A stretch of 64,000 nucleotides of DNA from Jiangella asiatica (GTDB lineage Bacteria > Actinomycetota > Actinomycetes > Jiangellales > Jiangellaceae): the NCBI RefSeq assembly GCF_004349065.1, contig NZ_SMKZ01000024.1, positions 1 to 64,000 of the forward strand, in the 5' to 3' direction. Position numbers and translations under genes: made by a program. Within the stretch, counting starts at the first letter, position 1. Each line of letters starts with the position of its first letter. Positions 6,772-14,193 of the stretch are shown piece by piece. The notes under the pieces were generated by a model, which was not told the origin of the DNA, ran no database searches, and was given only the letters and a program-made list of their open reading frames with translations.

Positions 6772-6817
6772 TTTACGCCACTGGCCGCCACGACTAACCT
6801 ACAACCTAATGGTTGTA
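6772..6817 (+). promoter_or_regulatory. Leaderless-type promoter with ArsR operator
   Basis: TTTACG (6772-6777), a 17-base spacer and TAACCT (6795-6800) form a plausible sigma-70-type promoter whose start would fall at or just before the ATG at 6809. The perfect inverted repeat TACAACC-N4-GGTTGTA (6800-6817) covers the -10 end, the transcription start and the start codon. ArsR-family repressors bind imperfect or perfect dyads of this kind. Occupancy would block RNA polymerase, so the operon is probably autorepressed. Boxes and dyad are seen; binding is inferred. Confidence 0.7.
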
Positions 6818-7192
6818 AATGAGGTGTCCGACGAGACGGTGGACCAGCTGTTCCACGCGCTGGCCGACGCCACGCGCCGCGACATCCTGCGCCGCTGCGT
6901 AGCCGCCGAGGCGTCGGTGTCGCGGCTGGCCGAGGCCTATCCGATGAGCTTCGCGGCGGTCCAGAAGCACGTCGCGGTGCTCGAGCGCGCCGGTCTGGTC
7001 ACGAAGCAGCGGCGCGGGCGCCAGCAGCTCGTGCGCACCGACGTCGACGCGCTGGCCCGTGCTCGGCGGGCGCTCGACCAGCTCGAGCTGGCCTGGCGCG
7101 GTCGCGTCGAGCGGATGTCCGGTCTGCTCGGCGAGGACACCTCAGCCGACGACGACGCATCGCCACACATCGAAGGGAACGACAGATCATGA
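6809..7192 (+). CDS. ArsR-family helix-turn-helix repressor
   Basis: A 127-residue winged-helix regulator of the ArsR family, without a metal-binding Cys cluster. The N-terminal helix LFHALADATRRDILRRC is the family hallmark, and the recognition helix lies around FAAVQKHVAVLERAGLV, followed by the wing KQRRGRQQLV. Its start codon lies inside a perfect dyad operator, indicating autoregulation and probably a leaderless mRNA; GTG 6824 is an alternative start. The last 4 bases overlap the DHFR-like gene, so both are made together. This ArsR class pairs commonly with DHFR-like or SRPBCC genes, as again at 45777 in this window. The inducer is unknown. Confidence 0.9.
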   Translation: MVVNEVSDETVDQLFHALADATRRDILRRCVAAEASVSRLAEAYPMSFAAVQKHVAVLERAGLVTKQRRGRQQLVRTDVDALARARRALDQLELAWRGRVERMSGLLGEDTSADDDASPHIEGNDRS

Positions 7193-7830
7193 AGTTGGTC
7201 CTCAACGAGTTCCTCAGCCTCGACGGCGTCATGCAGGGCCCCGGCGCCGTCGACGAGGACCGCAGCGACGGCTTCGACCGCGGCGGCTGGATCGTCCCGT
7301 TCGCGACCGAGGAGTCGTGGGGACAGGTCGTCGACGGCTGGTTCCGCCGGGTCGAGATCTTCCTGCTCGGCCGCACCACCTACGACATGATGTACGGCTA
7401 CTGGAGCCGGGTCACCGACCCCGACAACCTCGTCGCCACCAAGCTCAACACCTACCCGAAGTACGTGTCCAGCTCCTCGATGACCGACCCGGCGTGGGCC
7501 AACACCACCGTCCTGCCCGGCGACCCGGTCAAGGCCGTCGCCGAGCTCAAGGTCCGCGACGGCGGCGAGCTCCAGGTGCACGGCAGCTGGCGACTCGCGA
7601 AGACCCTGCACGAGGCGGGGCTCGTCGACGAGTACCGCCTGCTGACCTTCCCCGTCGCCGTCGGCACCGGCAAGCGCCTGTTCACCGACACCGCACCGGC
7701 GACCGGCTTCACCGTCCTGGAGACCCGAGCGCTCGGTTCCGGCATCACCTACCACGCCCTCACCCCTGCCCCGTACGCCCAGGGGGACCTCGACGTCGTC
7801 GACGGCCAGGAGGCGGTGACCGACGCCTGA
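7189..7830 (+). CDS. Dihydrofolate reductase family protein (RibD C-terminal fold)
   Basis: A 213-residue protein with the DHFR/RibD C-terminal Rossmann-like fold, of the YwjB/YyaP group. Characteristic stretches are the opening LVLNEFLSLDGVMQGPG, the nucleotide-site loop FLLGRTTYDMMYGYW, KYVSSSSM in the middle and the C-terminal LVDEYRLLTFPVAVGTGKRLF. Such proteins are not the folate enzyme FolA; reductase activity on pterin-, flavin- or deaminated-purine-like compounds is assumed from the fold, but the physiological reaction is not known. Translation is coupled to the ArsR repressor by ATGA overlap. Related proteins occur at 9331 and 46628 and in frameshifted form at 48028-48707. Confidence 0.87.
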   Translation: MKLVLNEFLSLDGVMQGPGAVDEDRSDGFDRGGWIVPFATEESWGQVVDGWFRRVEIFLLGRTTYDMMYGYWSRVTDPDNLVATKLNTYPKYVSSSSMTDPAWANTTVLPGDPVKAVAELKVRDGGELQVHGSWRLAKTLHEAGLVDEYRLLTFPVAVGTGKRLFTDTAPATGFTVLETRALGSGITYHALTPAPYAQGDLDVVDGQEAVTDA

Positions 7831-9330: not shown

Positions 9331-9876
9331 ATGGGTTCCATCGCAGTGCACGAGTTCATCTCGCTGGACGGGTTCTTCCAGGACCCGAGCTGGACGGCCG
9401 ACTACGGGTTCCTACCGGAGATGGGCGAAGCACTCGGGCCGATCACCGACGCGGCGACGGCGATCCTGCTGGGCCGCACCACGTACGAGATGTTCGCGCC
9501 GGCCTGGTCCAACCGCACCGTCGAGGACGACGAGGGCGCGCCGTTCTTCAACGACACCCCGAAGTACGTCGTCGGCTCCACCGCACCGAACGTCGACTGG
9601 CCGCCGCTCACCCGCCTCGGCTCGTACGACCCCGCGAAGATCGCCGAGCTCAAGGCCGACATCGACGGCGGCATCTTCACCTCCGGCAGCGGCACCCTCG
9701 TGCGTGCCATGCTCCGCGACGAGCTGGTCGACGACCTGCACCTGTTCGTCTACCCCATCGTCCTGGGCACCGGGAAGCGGTTCTGGGGCGAGAGCGCCGA
9801 CCCCACCCGGTTCGCGCTGAAGGGGCAGCAAGTCTTCGACAACGGCGTCGTCCACCTCCACTACGGCCCAGCCTGA
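9331..9876 (+). CDS. Dihydrofolate reductase family protein
   Basis: A 181-residue stand-alone RibD-C/DHFR-fold protein, clearly paralogous to the one at 7189. It opens with IAVHEFISLDGFFQDPS, contains the nucleotide-binding ILLGRTTYEMF, PKYVVGST, and SGTLVRAMLRDELVDDLHLF, and ends in a Gly-Lys-Arg-Phe segment (GTGKRFW). The ribosome site GAGAGG lies 12 bases before the ATG, which is longer than usual. Unlike its relatives it has no adjacent ArsR gene and is divergent from an acetyltransferase. Reaction unknown; the fold predicts NAD(P)H-dependent reduction of a heterocycle. Confidence 0.87.
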   Translation: MGSIAVHEFISLDGFFQDPSWTADYGFLPEMGEALGPITDAATAILLGRTTYEMFAPAWSNRTVEDDEGAPFFNDTPKYVVGSTAPNVDWPPLTRLGSYDPAKIAELKADIDGGIFTSGSGTLVRAMLRDELVDDLHLFVYPIVLGTGKRFWGESADPTRFALKGQQVFDNGVVHLHYGPA

Positions 9877-10226
9877 GCGGACCGCGGCAGCGCCAGCCGT
9901 GGCCGCGCAGTCATTTCGGGCTCTCCTGTGGCTTCGGTGGGTTGTTCCGAGGTTGCTTTGGTGGGGGCGTTCGGATCGGTGCGATGTCGATAGCCGGCGT
10001 CGACCGTGATGGCGCCAGACGCGGACCGACTCCGGTTTCGGGTCCTGGAGCGTGATCATGGCCATCGAGGTCGGGCAGCGCTATCTGGCTCAGGCTGTGG
10101 CGGTGGGACATCCCAGGTGAGTCGACATCGTCGTCGGGCCTGGTGTGTCGCAACCGCCGGGATGTGCCGGGCGCCTGGTATCGGCCGGCCCGCTCAGGCG
10201 CCCTGCGGATCGGGTCGGAGCGCCTC

Positions 10227-10314
10227 AAATGATCACGTTCAGCAGGATTCCCCGAGCCTCACCATGCTTGCGAGCATGGTGTGACACGAGATCTCGTGCT
10301 GAACGTGATCATTT
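10227..10314. repeat. Nested cruciform-type element with TGATCA-bearing arms
   Basis: Outer arms of 18 perfectly complementary bases (10227-10244 and 10297-10314) enclose a second perfect 9-bp hairpin CACCATGCT-tgcg-AGCATGGTG (10260-10281). Both outer arms contain the TGATCA palindrome near their base, as in the element at 4791-4840. The strand-symmetric shape would fold as a three-part RNA or a cruciform in DNA. There is no coding capacity and no T-tract. It could be a non-autonomous repeat (REP/MITE-like) or a structured RNA signal. Confidence 0.8.
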
Positions 10315-10378
10315 CGGCGTGGGCGCCCCGGGGCGACGACGGCCAGGTTGAGATTCCGAGAACTCAGCGCGTTCGGGA

Positions 10379-10405
10379 TGTCGAGAACGTGGCGCTGGCT
10401 CCGTC
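10379..10405 (+). promoter_or_regulatory. ECF42-type promoter of the VOC operon
   Basis: TGTCGA (10379-10384), 17 bases and CGTC (10402-10405). The whole block is nearly the same as the one upstream of the YCII-sigma operon at 11514-11540, including GAAC after the -35 and GGCTC before the -10. TGTCGA / CG(A/T)C is the promoter class reported for ECF42 sigma factors in Streptomyces. The start codon follows 50 bases downstream. Confidence 0.78.
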
Positions 10406-10455
10406 CCAGCCACACCAGTGGCCCCGACGGGCCGCGCGACGAAGGAGAACCCACC

Positions 10456-10896
10456 ATGACGATCCAGCGGATGGACAACGTCGCCATTGTCGTCGAAGAC
10501 CTGGATGCCGCCGTCGCCTTCTTCACCGAGCTCGGCATGGAGCTGGAAGGCAGAGCGCAGATCGAGGGCCTCACGGCGGACCGCACCGTCGGACTCGACG
10601 GCGTCCGCAGCGACATCGCGATGATGCGGACCCCAGACGGCCACGGCAGGCTGGAACTGACGAAATACCACGCCCCCGCGGCGATCGGCGCCACACCGCA
10701 CGACCCGCCGCCCAACACGCCGGGCCTGCATCGCGTCATGTTCGCCGTCGACGACATCGAGGACGTCGTTGCCCGCCTGCGCACTCACGGCGCCGAACTC
10801 GTCGGTGAGCTGGCCCAGTACGAAAACAGCTACCGGCTCTGCTACGTCCGCGGCCCCGAGGGGATCATCGTCGCGCTGGCCGAGCAGCTCAACTGA
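10456..10896 (+). CDS. VOC (glyoxalase/bleomycin-resistance fold) protein
   Basis: A 146-residue protein with two beta-alpha-beta-beta-beta modules of the vicinal-oxygen-chelate superfamily. It opens with RMDNVAIVVEDLDAAVAFF, has TPDGHGRLELTKY as the middle strand with Glu in a potential metal position, GLHRVMFAVDDIEDVVARL beginning the second module with His, and ends CYVRGPEGIIVALAEQL with a second Glu. These match the usual H/E metal-ligand pattern, so a metal-dependent lyase, dioxygenase or resistance role is possible. GAAGGAG lies 8 bases before ATG 10456. Its promoter matches that of the sigma operon, so it is likely a member of that regulon together with the flavin-oxidase-like gene behind it. 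Confidence 0.88.
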   Translation: MTIQRMDNVAIVVEDLDAAVAFFTELGMELEGRAQIEGLTADRTVGLDGVRSDIAMMRTPDGHGRLELTKYHAPAAIGATPHDPPPNTPGLHRVMFAVDDIEDVVARLRTHGAELVGELAQYENSYRLCYVRGPEGIIVALAEQLN

Positions 10897-10974
10897 CGGC
10901 CCGTCGCGGCCGACCTGCGACCACCCACAACGATCCGCTTGGACCGACCGAGAACGACAACTGGAGGAACAACC

Positions 10975-11475
10975 GTGCAACCGAACGAGATCACCGAGGT
11001 TCTGAACCGACCGGTCAGTCAGGAACTGTTGGCCCGCGACGTGACCCGCTTGGCCTACGTCGCCGAGGACGGCACACCGCGGAACGTCCCGATCGGGTTC
11101 ACCTGGAACGGCTCGGAGATCGTCATGTGCACGTCGAAGAATGCTCCGAAGCTTCCGGCCTTGGTCGAGAACCCGATGGTCGCCCTGACGATCGACACCG
11201 AGGTGCACCCGCCCAAGATCTTGCTCATCCGGGGCCGGGCCGAGCTGGACTTCGTCGATGGCATCCCGGCCGAGTATCTCCAGGCGACGAGCACCTACGA
11301 GATGACGCCCGAGCAACGGGTCGAGTGGGAGGCGGAGGTGCGCTCGCTCTACCGCGACGGCATGGTCCGGATCGTGGTGACCCCGACGTGGGCGAAGCTG
11401 ATCGACTTCGAGACGACTCTGCCGAGCGCGGTCGAGGAGCTGGTCCGGCGGCGGGAAGAGCGTCAGCGCGCCTGA
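10975..11475 (+). CDS. Pyridoxamine 5'-phosphate oxidase-fold (split-barrel flavoprotein) family
   Basis: A 166-residue split beta-barrel protein of the PNPOx-like/F420-or FMN-binding superfamily. Recognisable stretches are LARDVTRLAYVAEDGTPRNV (entry strand), PIGFTWNGSEIVMCTSKNAPK, ENPMVALTIDTEVHP and KILLIRGRAEL, the last two being the strands that carry the cofactor pocket. GTG 10975 has GGAGGA 6 bases upstream, which outranks other starts. Downstream of the VOC gene by 78 bases with no promoter evident between, so probably co-transcribed under the ECF-type promoter. Many such actinobacterial proteins use F420; which cofactor applies here cannot be told. Confidence 0.85.
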   Translation: MQPNEITEVLNRPVSQELLARDVTRLAYVAEDGTPRNVPIGFTWNGSEIVMCTSKNAPKLPALVENPMVALTIDTEVHPPKILLIRGRAELDFVDGIPAEYLQATSTYEMTPEQRVEWEAEVRSLYRDGMVRIVVTPTWAKLIDFETTLPSAVEELVRRREERQRA

Positions 11476-11513
11476 GCACCGGGCGGTCGTCCGTCAGAAT
11501 TGTCGCGGGAGGA

Positions 11514-11540
11514 TGTCGAGAACCCGCCCGCGGCTCCGTC
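11514..11540 (+). promoter_or_regulatory. ECF42-type promoter of the YCII-sigma operon
   Basis: TGTCGA (11514-11519), 17 bases and CGTC (11537-11540), matching the site at 10379 base for base in both boxes and in spacing. It lies about 50 bases before the YCII gene and is followed by the sigma factor itself, so it predicts positive autoregulation. Confidence 0.8.
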
Positions 11541-11588
11541 CCCGCGGTGAACACGGCCACAATGGCCGTACGCCACAAGGAGAACATG

Positions 11589-11999
11589 ATGGCCAAGTAC
11601 CTGCTGCTCAAGCACTACCGGGGTGGCCCGGCCCCCGCCGTGGACTTCGCGCCGATGGACCAGTGGACGCCGGACGAGGTCGACGCGCACGTGCGGTTCA
11701 TGCGCGACTTCGCGGCCCGGCTGGAGGAGGCGGGCGAGTTCGTCGACACCCAGGCGCTGGCGCCCGACGGCGCGTTCGTGCGGTACGACGGCGAGGGGCG
11801 GCCGCCGGTGACCGACGGGCCGTTCGTCGAGACCAAGGACCTGATCGCCGGGTGGTACATCGTCGACGTGGAGTCGTGGGATCGCGCGGTACAGCTGGCA
11901 GGGGAGCTGTCGGCGGCGCCCGGGCCTGGCGGCAAGCCGGTCTGCGAATGGCTGGAGGTTCGGCCGTTGTGGGGCGACTCGCCCGCGGTCACCGAGTGA
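11589..11999 (+). CDS. YCII/DGPF-domain protein
   Basis: A 136-residue protein of the YCII-related family. It carries the signature TDGPFVETKDLIAGW that gave the DGPF family its name, and begins AKYLLLKHYRGG as these proteins do. DGPF proteins are the standard genomic partners of ECF41/ECF42-type sigma factors and are thought to be either enzymes or modulators; their activity is not known. ATG 11589 is preferred over the adjacent ATG 11586 because AAGGAGA lies closer to the ideal spacing. It overlaps the sigma factor gene by GTGA, so the two proteins are made in coupled fashion. Confidence 0.9.
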   Translation: MAKYLLLKHYRGGPAPAVDFAPMDQWTPDEVDAHVRFMRDFAARLEEAGEFVDTQALAPDGAFVRYDGEGRPPVTDGPFVETKDLIAGWYIVDVESWDRAVQLAGELSAAPGPGGKPVCEWLEVRPLWGDSPAVTE

Positions 12000-13141
12000 A
12001 CGAGCCGCTGCTGCGGGAGCTGGTGCCCGCGGTGATCGGAGTCCTCGTCCGTCGCGGAGCCGACTTCGCGGCGGCCGAGGACGCCGTGCAGGACGCCCTG
12101 GTCGAGGCCGTTCGCGTGTGGCCGGATGCTCCGCCGCAAGATCCCAAGGGCTGGTTGGTCACCGTGGCTTGGCGCAAGTTCCTCGACGCCTCCCGCGCCG
12201 ATACCTCTCGACGGCACCGCGAGGCACGCGTCGAGAGCGAGCCCATGCCCGGCCCGGGCGAGGCGGTCGACGACACGCTCCAGCTGTACTTCCTGTGCGC
12301 GCACCCGTCCCTGACACCGGCGTCGGCCGTCGCGCTCACGCTGCGCGCGGCCGGCGGCCTGACCACGCGTCAGATCGCACAGGCCTACCTCGTGCCGGAG
12401 ACGACCATGGCCCAGCGGATCAGCCGAGCAAAGCGGACGGTCTCGGGCGTCCGGTTCAACCAGCCCGGTGACGTCGCCACGGTGGTGCGCGTGCTCTACC
12501 TGGTCTTCAACGAGGGCTACTCCGGCGACGTCGACCTCGCCGCCGAGGCGATCCGGCTCACCCGTCAACTGGCGGCCATGACCAGCCACGAGGAGGTGGC
12601 GGGCCTGCTCGCGCTCATGCTGCTGCACCACGCTCGGCGCCCGGCACGGACCCGCCCCGACGGCAGCCTCGTGCCCCTCACCGAGCAGGACCGCAGCCTG
12701 TGGGACACCCGCCTGATCGCCGAGGGCGTCGACGTGCTCCAGACAGCCCTCGCCCGCGACCGCCTGGGCGAATTCCAGGCCCAGGCCGCCATCGCCGCGC
12801 TGCACGCCGACGCCCGGACGGCCGAGGAGACCGACTGGGTGCAGATCGTCGAGTGGTACGACGAACTGGTGCGGCTCACCGCCAGCCCGGTGGCCCGCCT
12901 CAACCGGGCAGTCGCGGTCGGCGAGGCCGACGGCCCGCGGGCCGGCCTGGCCGCCCTGGCAGAGCTCGACCCCGCACTGCCCCGCCACACCGCCGCCGCG
13001 GCGTACCTGCACGAGCGTGACGGTGACCCGGTGACCGCGGCACGGCTCTACGCCGAAGCCGCCCGATCAGCTCCCAGCCTCCCCGAACGCGACCATTTCA
13101 CGCGACACGCCGCACGGCTCAACGCGCAACTGCGCGGTTGA
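11996..13141 (+). CDS. RNA polymerase ECF sigma factor, ECF42 type with long C-terminal extension
   Basis: A 381-residue sigma factor. Region 2 is at about 1-75 (AAAEDAVQDALVEAVRVWP-like, WLVTVAWRKFLDASR) and region 4 at about 110-165 (LTTRQIAQAYLVPETTM, QRISRAKR helix-turn-helix). The remaining ~210 residues form the helical, TPR-like C-terminal extension typical of ECF42, in place of an anti-sigma factor; none is encoded nearby. GTG 11996 overlaps the stop of the YCII gene. The promoter at 11514 and the one at 10379 match the ECF42 consensus known from Streptomyces, so this factor probably drives its own operon and the VOC operon. The signal is unknown. Confidence 0.92.
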   Translation: MNEPLLRELVPAVIGVLVRRGADFAAAEDAVQDALVEAVRVWPDAPPQDPKGWLVTVAWRKFLDASRADTSRRHREARVESEPMPGPGEAVDDTLQLYFLCAHPSLTPASAVALTLRAAGGLTTRQIAQAYLVPETTMAQRISRAKRTVSGVRFNQPGDVATVVRVLYLVFNEGYSGDVDLAAEAIRLTRQLAAMTSHEEVAGLLALMLLHHARRPARTRPDGSLVPLTEQDRSLWDTRLIAEGVDVLQTALARDRLGEFQAQAAIAALHADARTAEETDWVQIVEWYDELVRLTASPVARLNRAVAVGEADGPRAGLAALAELDPALPRHTAAAAYLHERDGDPVTAARLYAEAARSAPSLPERDHFTRHAARLNAQLRG

Positions 13142-13347
13142 GCGGCGGGCGCAGTCACTCACCGCCCCGATTGGGACGGTCCGCCCACCCAGTTGGCCGG
13201 CCGGACCGCGTCACTACCACTCTTGCCCGTCGTCCCGGAAATGACGCACCTGTGACGCTTGGCCGACCTGAACGCATGTGGTCGGTGTAGGTCGGTGGCT
13301 GCTGGGACGATGCGTCTCGAGCAAGACCGAGTCCGTGCAGACCGTGC

Positions 13348-14193
13348 TCAGGTTCTCGCCCCAGAACCGATGATGAATTCGAGCTCGGCCTCGAGTCCGT
13401 CACCTGATTCGAACTGCGTCAGGCGGTCGCGGACCTCCGCCCATGCCTTCGCCCGGTCGGCCTCAGCGAGGTCTGCCAGCACCGCTCGATAGGCCCCGGC
13501 GGCCTCCTGCAACATGTGCGTGGCGCTATCGGCGCTCGCCAGCCGCAACGTGGCACCGACGACATGGGTGCGTACGTCCACCAGGCCGCCGTCGATCAAG
13601 AGCCGCTCAAGGACACCCGCGTCCCCCAGTGCGAAGATTCCGGGCTGTCCCGGGCCCGGCGGCGCCGCCCCGGCGTGCCGGAGCAGGATCGCCATCGGGT
13701 CGGCCATGAACGAATTGTGGAGGGGTGTGGTGAAGACCAGCGATGCGAATCTGCCGCCCGGCTTGAGCGCGGCCCGGACCGTCTCCAGCGCTCGGCCGGG
13801 CGCGGCAAAGAGCATGAGCCCCAGCCGGGAGATGGCCGCGTCGAAATGCGCTGTCGGCAGGTCGAGGTCCTCGGCCGGACCTTCCAGCGTCGTGATGTTG
13901 TGCAGGCCTGCCTCGGCCGCGTTGTGTAGCACATGCTCGAGCATGGTCGGCGAGATATCGCTGGCGACCACGCCGCCGGCGGGCCCGACTCGCTCAGCTA
14001 CCCGGAGGGTCTGGCTGCCTGCTCCGCATGCGAGATCGAGGACCTGCATTCCCGGCCGCACTCCGGCCTCGTCGATCATGGTGTCGGTGGCGTCCGCGGC
14101 CGCGCGCGCCCACACCGGCTCCCATTTCGCCCAGCCAGGCGCGGCTGCCTCCCAGGTGCTGCGCAATCGCGATGTCGTCGTCTCTTCGACCAT
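13348..14193 (-). CDS. Class I SAM-dependent methyltransferase
   Basis: A 281-residue methyltransferase of the UbiE/Methyltransf_11 type. SAM motif I is QVLDLACGAGSQTLRVAERV (about 52-71), the acidic residue ending strand 2 is in VVASDISPTML, motif II is LPTAHFDAAISRLGLM and motif III is LKPGGRF. ATG 14193 is preceded by GGGGAGG at 6-bp spacing; the open frame continues upstream to 14823 but the upstream part contains only a recombinase relic. Substrate unknown; small aromatic, quinone or lipid acceptors are common in this group. It converges with the sigma factor gene across 206 bases that hold only a weak hairpin (13177-13208). Confidence 0.88.
   Translation of the reverse strand: MVEETTTSRLRSTWEAAAPGWAKWEPVWARAAADATDTMIDEAGVRPGMQVLDLACGAGSQTLRVAERVGPAGGVVASDISPTMLEHVLHNAAEAGLHNITTLEGPAEDLDLPTAHFDAAISRLGLMLFAAPGRALETVRAALKPGGRFASLVFTTPLHNSFMADPMAILLRHAGAAPPGPGQPGIFALGDAGVLERLLIDGGLVDVRTHVVGATLRLASADSATHMLQEAAGAYRAVLADLAEADRAKAWAEVRDRLTQFESGDGLEAELEFIIGSGART

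Follow-up and report, generated by a model that had tools for sequence, protein, structure and literature searches.

A candidate ECF42-type sigma factor regulon in Jiangella asiatica marked by a stringent 27-nt promoter element

The DNA analyzed here (the window) is a 64,000-nt stretch of the Jiangella asiatica genome (assembly GCF_004349065.1, contig NZ_SMKZ01000024.1, positions 1 to 64,000), in which two matched promoter-like elements precede four genes on the forward strand, one of them encoding a putative extracytoplasmic function (ECF) sigma factor of the ECF42 type. The first element (10379..10405, + strand), which has the form TGTCGAGAAC-N8-GGCTCCGTC, precedes VOC1 and PPOX. VOC1 (10456..10896, +) encodes a glyoxalase/bleomycin-resistance-like (VOC) protein of 146 aa (PF00903, E 9.8e-16), whose closest solved structure by sequence is 1ss4 (E 2.8e-48). 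PPOX (10975..11475, +), the second gene behind the VOC1 promoter, encodes a PNPOx-fold protein of 166 aa (PF01243, E 5.3e-08), which is possibly flavin- or F420-dependent. Its closest solved structure by sequence is 3f7e (E 5e-05; entry title, MSMEG_3380 F420 reductase), and its model, of low confidence (predicted local distance difference test (pLDDT), 67), matches the fold of the F420 proteins 3f7e and 4qvb. In NCBIfam, the Rv3369/Rv1155 families fell under the cut-off, with TIGR03667 at 42.6 bits against a cut-off of 125.3. The second element (11514..11540, +), also TGTCGAGAAC-N8-GGCTCCGTC, precedes the YCII-sigma operon. The YCII/DGPF-family gene starts at 11586 or 11589 and ends at 11999 (+; PF03795, E 8.3e-10); its translation contains the DGPF motif, in TDGPFVETKD, and is closest by sequence to the solved structure 1s7i (PA1349). 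The GTG start codon of the sigma gene (11996..13141, +; 381 aa) overlaps the YCII stop codon. The distance from site to start codon is 77 nt for VOC1 and 72 or 75 nt for the two candidate starts of YCII. Neither a consensus sigma-70 promoter nor an intrinsic terminator was found in 10200-13400, and no Rfam family was matched at the gathering threshold in 9700-13600.

A sequence-only reading of this region had drawn attention to the identical pattern TGTCGA-N17-CGTC in front of both operons and to extra shared bases between the boxes. The pattern is indeed present at both sites on the + strand, and the two sites agree at 10/10 positions in TGTCGAGAAC and 9/9 in GGCTCCGTC; it is these additional bases that carry the signal. 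The short pattern is almost uninformative in a GC-rich genome and close to chance in the window, where TGTCGA-N16-18-CGTC matched 4 times against 1.66 expected and 8 of 100 shuffles reached 4. The genome-wide search suggested in the same reading, TGTCGA-N16-18-CGWC, returned 507 matches against 115 for the reversed control; the strict form, TGTCGAGA-N10-GGCTCCGTC, gave 3 sites in the 7.03-Mb genome and 0 in the reversed control. The first pattern built from the bases common to both sites recovered the same three places, with 0 in the reversed control, and the strict form with up to two mismatches matched 9 times in the own genome versus 3 for the reversed form. The third strict site is located 69 nt before VOC2, an unlinked gene on another contig whose product is 44% identical to VOC1. 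The proposed regulon of two operons is thus too small for this genome, and relatives add RibD_C genes to it. The element is not palindromic, occurs in one orientation and is laid out as -35, spacer and -10, its middle part being low in information; we describe it as a promoter of 27 nt, TGTCGAGA(AC)-N8-GGCTCCGTC, in which the distance from TGTCGA to CGTC is fixed at 17 nt. Elsewhere the two window sites agree at 2/8 positions in the spacer, 24/60 upstream and 18/40 downstream, and such unlike spacers and flanks disfavor a recent duplication.

We searched for the strict element in 12 genomes of the genus and found 34 sites. All 34, both window sites included, are followed on the same strand, after 62-80 nt, by the start of a YCII-sigma operon or of a PPOX, VOC or RibD_C gene; targets were assigned by BLAST and reading frames, with Pfam for one RibD_C gene and similarity for the others. 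At 24 of these sites, the window pair not among them, no sigma gene is present within the 2.6 kb scanned downstream, while in G007 and G011 a single site is followed by PPOX and then by YCII-sigma. In the reverse test, TGTCGA-N17-CGTC was found upstream of 10 of the 11 PPOX orthologs, the eleventh being the window copy that stands second behind the VOC1 promoter, and upstream of 15/16 close VOC homologs and 7/8 close RibD_C homologs. It was found upstream of none of the distant homologs (PPOX, 0/14; VOC, 0/14; RibD_C, 0/21); 5 of the 30 PPOX loci in this test had no tblastn row, three RibD_C rows at 35-39% identity were counted as distant, and L298, a 55-residue RibD_C remnant with 65-67% identity and no site, was excluded from the 21. 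In other genera of the family, all four strict sites precede VOC or PPOX sequence. The PPOX copy behind the site in G017 seems disrupted.

The sigma factor was then compared with the known traits of ECF42. A Pfam scan placed Sigma70_r2 at residues 5-69, Sigma70_r4_2 at 98-148 and DUF6596 at 161-251, and gave no match to a sigma3 domain. In an AlphaFold2 model based on 25 homologs (mean pLDDT, 80), the C-terminal half is all-helical, and its top structural matches are tetratricopeptide repeat (TPR) proteins (2pl2, Z 13.4 over 185 residues, root-mean-square deviation 3.1), a Z near 13 being modest for helical repeats according to the tool's own warning. A sequence search of the PDB with the sigma was negative at E values up to 0.001. 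No anti-sigma family was matched among the ten neighboring open reading frames (ORFs) of 4.9-18.5 kb, small ORFs lying outside the scan; these ten comprise an aldo-keto reductase, HTH_20, RibD_C, an acetyltransferase, a methyltransferase, an aminotransferase, peptidase S13 and three without a match. The window sigma is by its sequence ECF42-like: it combines a sigma2 and sigma4 core, a TPR-like extension of ~200 residues, an adjacent YCII/DGPF gene and a TGTCGA/CG(A/T)C promoter at its own operon. The long C-terminal extension, the lack of a recognizable anti-sigma partner and the pairing with YCII/DGPF, all of which the sequence-only reading had named, were thus borne out within these scans.

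The association extends across Actinobacteria. Among the named sigma orthologs of this class, the best 80 were kept (75-91% identical), and YCII is present at 79 of the 80 loci; L187, with only 68 nt of the locus upstream of sigma, was left out of the count. At 73 of the 79 loci with YCII, TGTCGA-N17-CGTC precedes YCII or a PPOX/VOC gene just upstream of YCII, and elsewhere in the same 679 kb it occurs three times. The window arrangement with both promoters (P), P-VOC1-PPOX-P-YCII-sigma, recurs at L130, from a Propionibacteriales metagenome-assembled genome (MAG), while P-PPOX-YCII-sigma is found at L129, L203, L106 and L119 and P-VOC1-YCII-sigma at L127 and L400. The strict element is present in 118 of 393 genomes drawn from the class and its reversed form in 0. 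Outside the family there are at least 112 class sites; the 112 among the matches listed were annotated, and at 109 of them a gene of the same families starts no more than 200 nt away (58-106 nt as aligned). The first match behind the 109 sites is YCII in 79 cases, VOC in 21, PPOX in 7, RibD_C in 1 (L311, 37% identical) and sigma itself in 1; a sigma match follows YCII in 77 of the 79. At L346 and L358, the promoter element is kept before what we read from the sequence as internal-deletion remnants of YCII-sigma.

The sites in the genus, the family and the class give strong comparative support to the earlier proposal that the ECF42-type sigma and the two matched promoters belong to one regulon. 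It is highly likely that the window encodes a self-regulated ECF42-type sigma factor with a YCII/DGPF partner, which would use a stringent 27-nt promoter to control its own operon together with enzyme units in trans. We infer that the sigma binds these sites, so that RNA polymerase carrying it would read the 27-nt promoter. It would drive its own YCII-sigma operon in a positive feedback and activate in trans small enzyme units, namely the adjacent VOC1-PPOX and VOC2 elsewhere in the genome; in relatives, it would drive PPOX, VOC and RibD_C units at other loci. The genes under its control could then probably be read directly from the DNA. Since no anti-sigma gene was recognized nearby, and since the C-terminal extension of ECF42 is essential for activity and YCII has been suggested as a regulatory partner (excerpts of PMC8999054), the switch would be held by the extension, perhaps with YCII. 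YCII is a possible co-regulator or sensor partner of the sigma. The enzymes so produced would chemically modify small molecules that are reactive or xenobiotic.

Several observations weigh against this interpretation. In G003, G004 and G009, no recognizable site precedes the sigma operon, and autoregulation is thus not universal; three other targets in each of these genomes do carry one. In G006, RibD_C and the VOC gene directly behind it are both without a site. The exact site is absent at 6 of the 79 named loci, of which three have near-versions (one -35 base changed at L131, one -10 base at L166 and one extra spacer base at L134) and three, L173, L178 and L201, have neither a site nor a near-version. 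The class site L335 is followed by no gene of these families, and the sigma encoded after YCII at L334 and L363 shows only 55-59% identity. The family genomes G013, G017 and G019 carry sites, and the survey for a sigma ortholog covered the genus, where it was found in 12/12 genomes (75-84% identical in the 11 relatives). Finally, the J. asiatica genome itself contains nine DUF6596 loci.

As these nine loci imply that another sigma could use the same promoters, we considered whether the promoters are of a real ECF42 type and are read mainly by another ECF42 paralog, or shared by several. The sigma paralog in stretch C56 of the genome, 53% identical to the window sigma, has a similar promoter, TGTCGAGAAC-N8-GGATCCGAC, and the diverged sigmas at L334 and L363 point in the same direction. 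This promoter is one of six sites in the own genome that match inexactly, of which C54 differs in the -35 box and the other five end in CGAC (C75:21731-21757, C117:5235-5261, C56:1102-1128, C78:7046-7072 and C134:11744-11770). The five CGAC sites lie 64-81 nt before genes, with start codons of our choice, for a major facilitator superfamily (MFS) transporter, a PhnB-type VOC protein (PF06983), the YCII-sigma paralog of C56, a flavin adenine dinucleotide (FAD)-binding oxidoreductase and a lone YCII protein; the MFS and FAD proteins were assigned by a Pfam scan of the first 250 residues. The site carries CGAC rather than CGTC at 5 of the 6 C56-type sigma loci examined, and no TGTCGAGA-type site was found at the 12 C71-type loci examined, two of which carry a different kind of match, TGTCGA-N18-CGAC. 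The grouping into C56 and C71 types is backed by fixed group-specific residues. By contrast, 79 of the 112 listed class sites precede YCII, and a match to the window sigma follows in 77, which makes a paralog as main or joint reader unlikely. The CGAC sites are instead a probable parallel ECF42 regulon, and the few sites available suggest that a -10 code, CGTC versus CGAC, separates the paralogous regulons. Residues that differ between the CGTC- and CGAC-class sigmas were listed, and we draw no tie from them to base recognition.

The strong sequence constraint across 27 nt would also be expected if the element were the operator of some other DNA-binding regulator and not a sigma promoter. We regard this as very improbable, as the single orientation, the lack of a palindrome, the -35/spacer/-10 layout with its low-information middle and the narrow distance to the start codon all speak for a promoter, and the N17 spacing and CGTC end match promoters assigned to the ECF42 sigma factor RpoE10 of Sinorhizobium (S.) meliloti in excerpts of PMC6180224. 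Chance or a recent local duplication as the source of the two matched window sites, to which the near-chance frequency of the short pattern in the window would lend itself, is refuted by the comparative data, given the unlike spacers and flanks, the zero count of the reversed strict element in 393 genomes and the same gene families marked by the strict element at other loci.

The ECF42 sigma factors of Streptomyces (S.) venezuelae reportedly use a TGTCGA/CG(A/T)C promoter and have DGPF targets. Compared with these, the promoter described here is longer, with its GAGA and GGCT parts, and also marks PPOX, VOC and RibD_C genes at loci other than that of the sigma. Sven_0747, Sven_7131 and Sven_4377 of S. 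venezuelae resemble the window sigma in their long TPR-rich C-terminal extension and YCII partner, and Pseudomonas putida ECF-10, also an ECF42 sigma factor, has effects on oxidative and antibiotic stress (both from excerpts of PMC8999054). S. meliloti RpoE10 shares with the window a YCII-sigma operon, glyoxalase-domain targets and a promoter with N17 and CGTC, but its -35 is TGTCGG (TGTCGG-N17-CGTC, spacing counted by us) in place of TGTCGAGA, and no PPOX or RibD_C target is reported in the same excerpts of PMC6180224. There, RpoE10 overexpression raised two other operons with glyoxalase-like domain genes; it did not raise the gene at the head of the RpoE10 operon itself. The expectation that VOC and PPOX targets would extend the regulon beyond DGPF proteins is thereby borne out in part: VOC-type targets have the RpoE10 precedent, while PPOX is new to the literature searched, in which we found no description of PPOX or RibD_C as ECF42 targets and no link between promoters of the CGAC type and a sigma paralog, the primary studies of S. 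venezuelae ECF42 and P. putida ECF-10 lying outside that search. Actinobacteria contain many DUF6596 sigma factors (excerpts of PMC11119718).

The VOC, PPOX and RibD_C targets make a role in detoxification or chemical stress plausible. Against such a role, VOC1 appears to lack conservation at the classical metal-ligand positions, which we take to be those of glyoxalase I; in 21 VOC1-type sequences, the first ligand position is mostly N and in some H, and the third varies among H, R and P. A heterodimer in which VOC1 and VOC2 would share metal ligands, each partner being without a different one in this genome, was rejected, as the VOC1 family as a whole does not conserve these positions and the VOC1 search brought up no close VOC2 of G002. 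Little is known about the signal and output of ECF42, and wherever a genome bears this promoter, recognizable by sequence with few stray matches, the likely regulon of one subfamily can be derived from it. The recurring PPOX, VOC, RibD_C and YCII targets may point to the chemistry involved, and the CGTC/CGAC split offers a direct handle on how paralogous sigmas in one cell stay separate. More tentatively, and with rather less than even confidence, we propose a portable class-wide response to xenobiotics or reactive metabolites, in which a one-component-like sigma would combine its TPR extension with YCII as a ligand sensor, the stringent promoter would let the regulon move gene by gene between loci and species, and the -10 code would insulate it from the parallel ECF42 regulon.

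With the sigmas of L125, L129 and L130 (Streptosporangium, Actinomadura and the Propionibacteriales MAG), the window sigma shares 90-91% identity, versus 75-84% within the genus. In a rapidly built tree, most of whose forks are weak, it is placed beside Actinomadura and near Streptosporangium and the Propionibacteriales MAG, and not with the genus. The higher identity to other genera than to its own hints that the window sigma was acquired by horizontal transfer.

Two further features lie upstream. At 6809-7830 of the window, an HTH_20/ArsR-like regulator gene is followed by a RibD_C-family gene without the promoter element, which is related to the regulon RibD_C at the 35-40% level. An 88-nt near-palindromic hairpin is located at 10227-10314, 64 nt upstream of the VOC promoter, and its arms begin with AAATGATCACGTTCAGCA. 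The arm is repeated in the own-genome stretches C8, C56, C57, C75 and C134 and, with one mismatch, in C71 and C78. Outside the window, 12 arms were counted in ~187 kb of the own genome when two mismatches were tolerated; 0.88 Mb of other genomes contained 0 when one mismatch was tolerated. The hairpin element looks like a strain-specific interspersed repeat.

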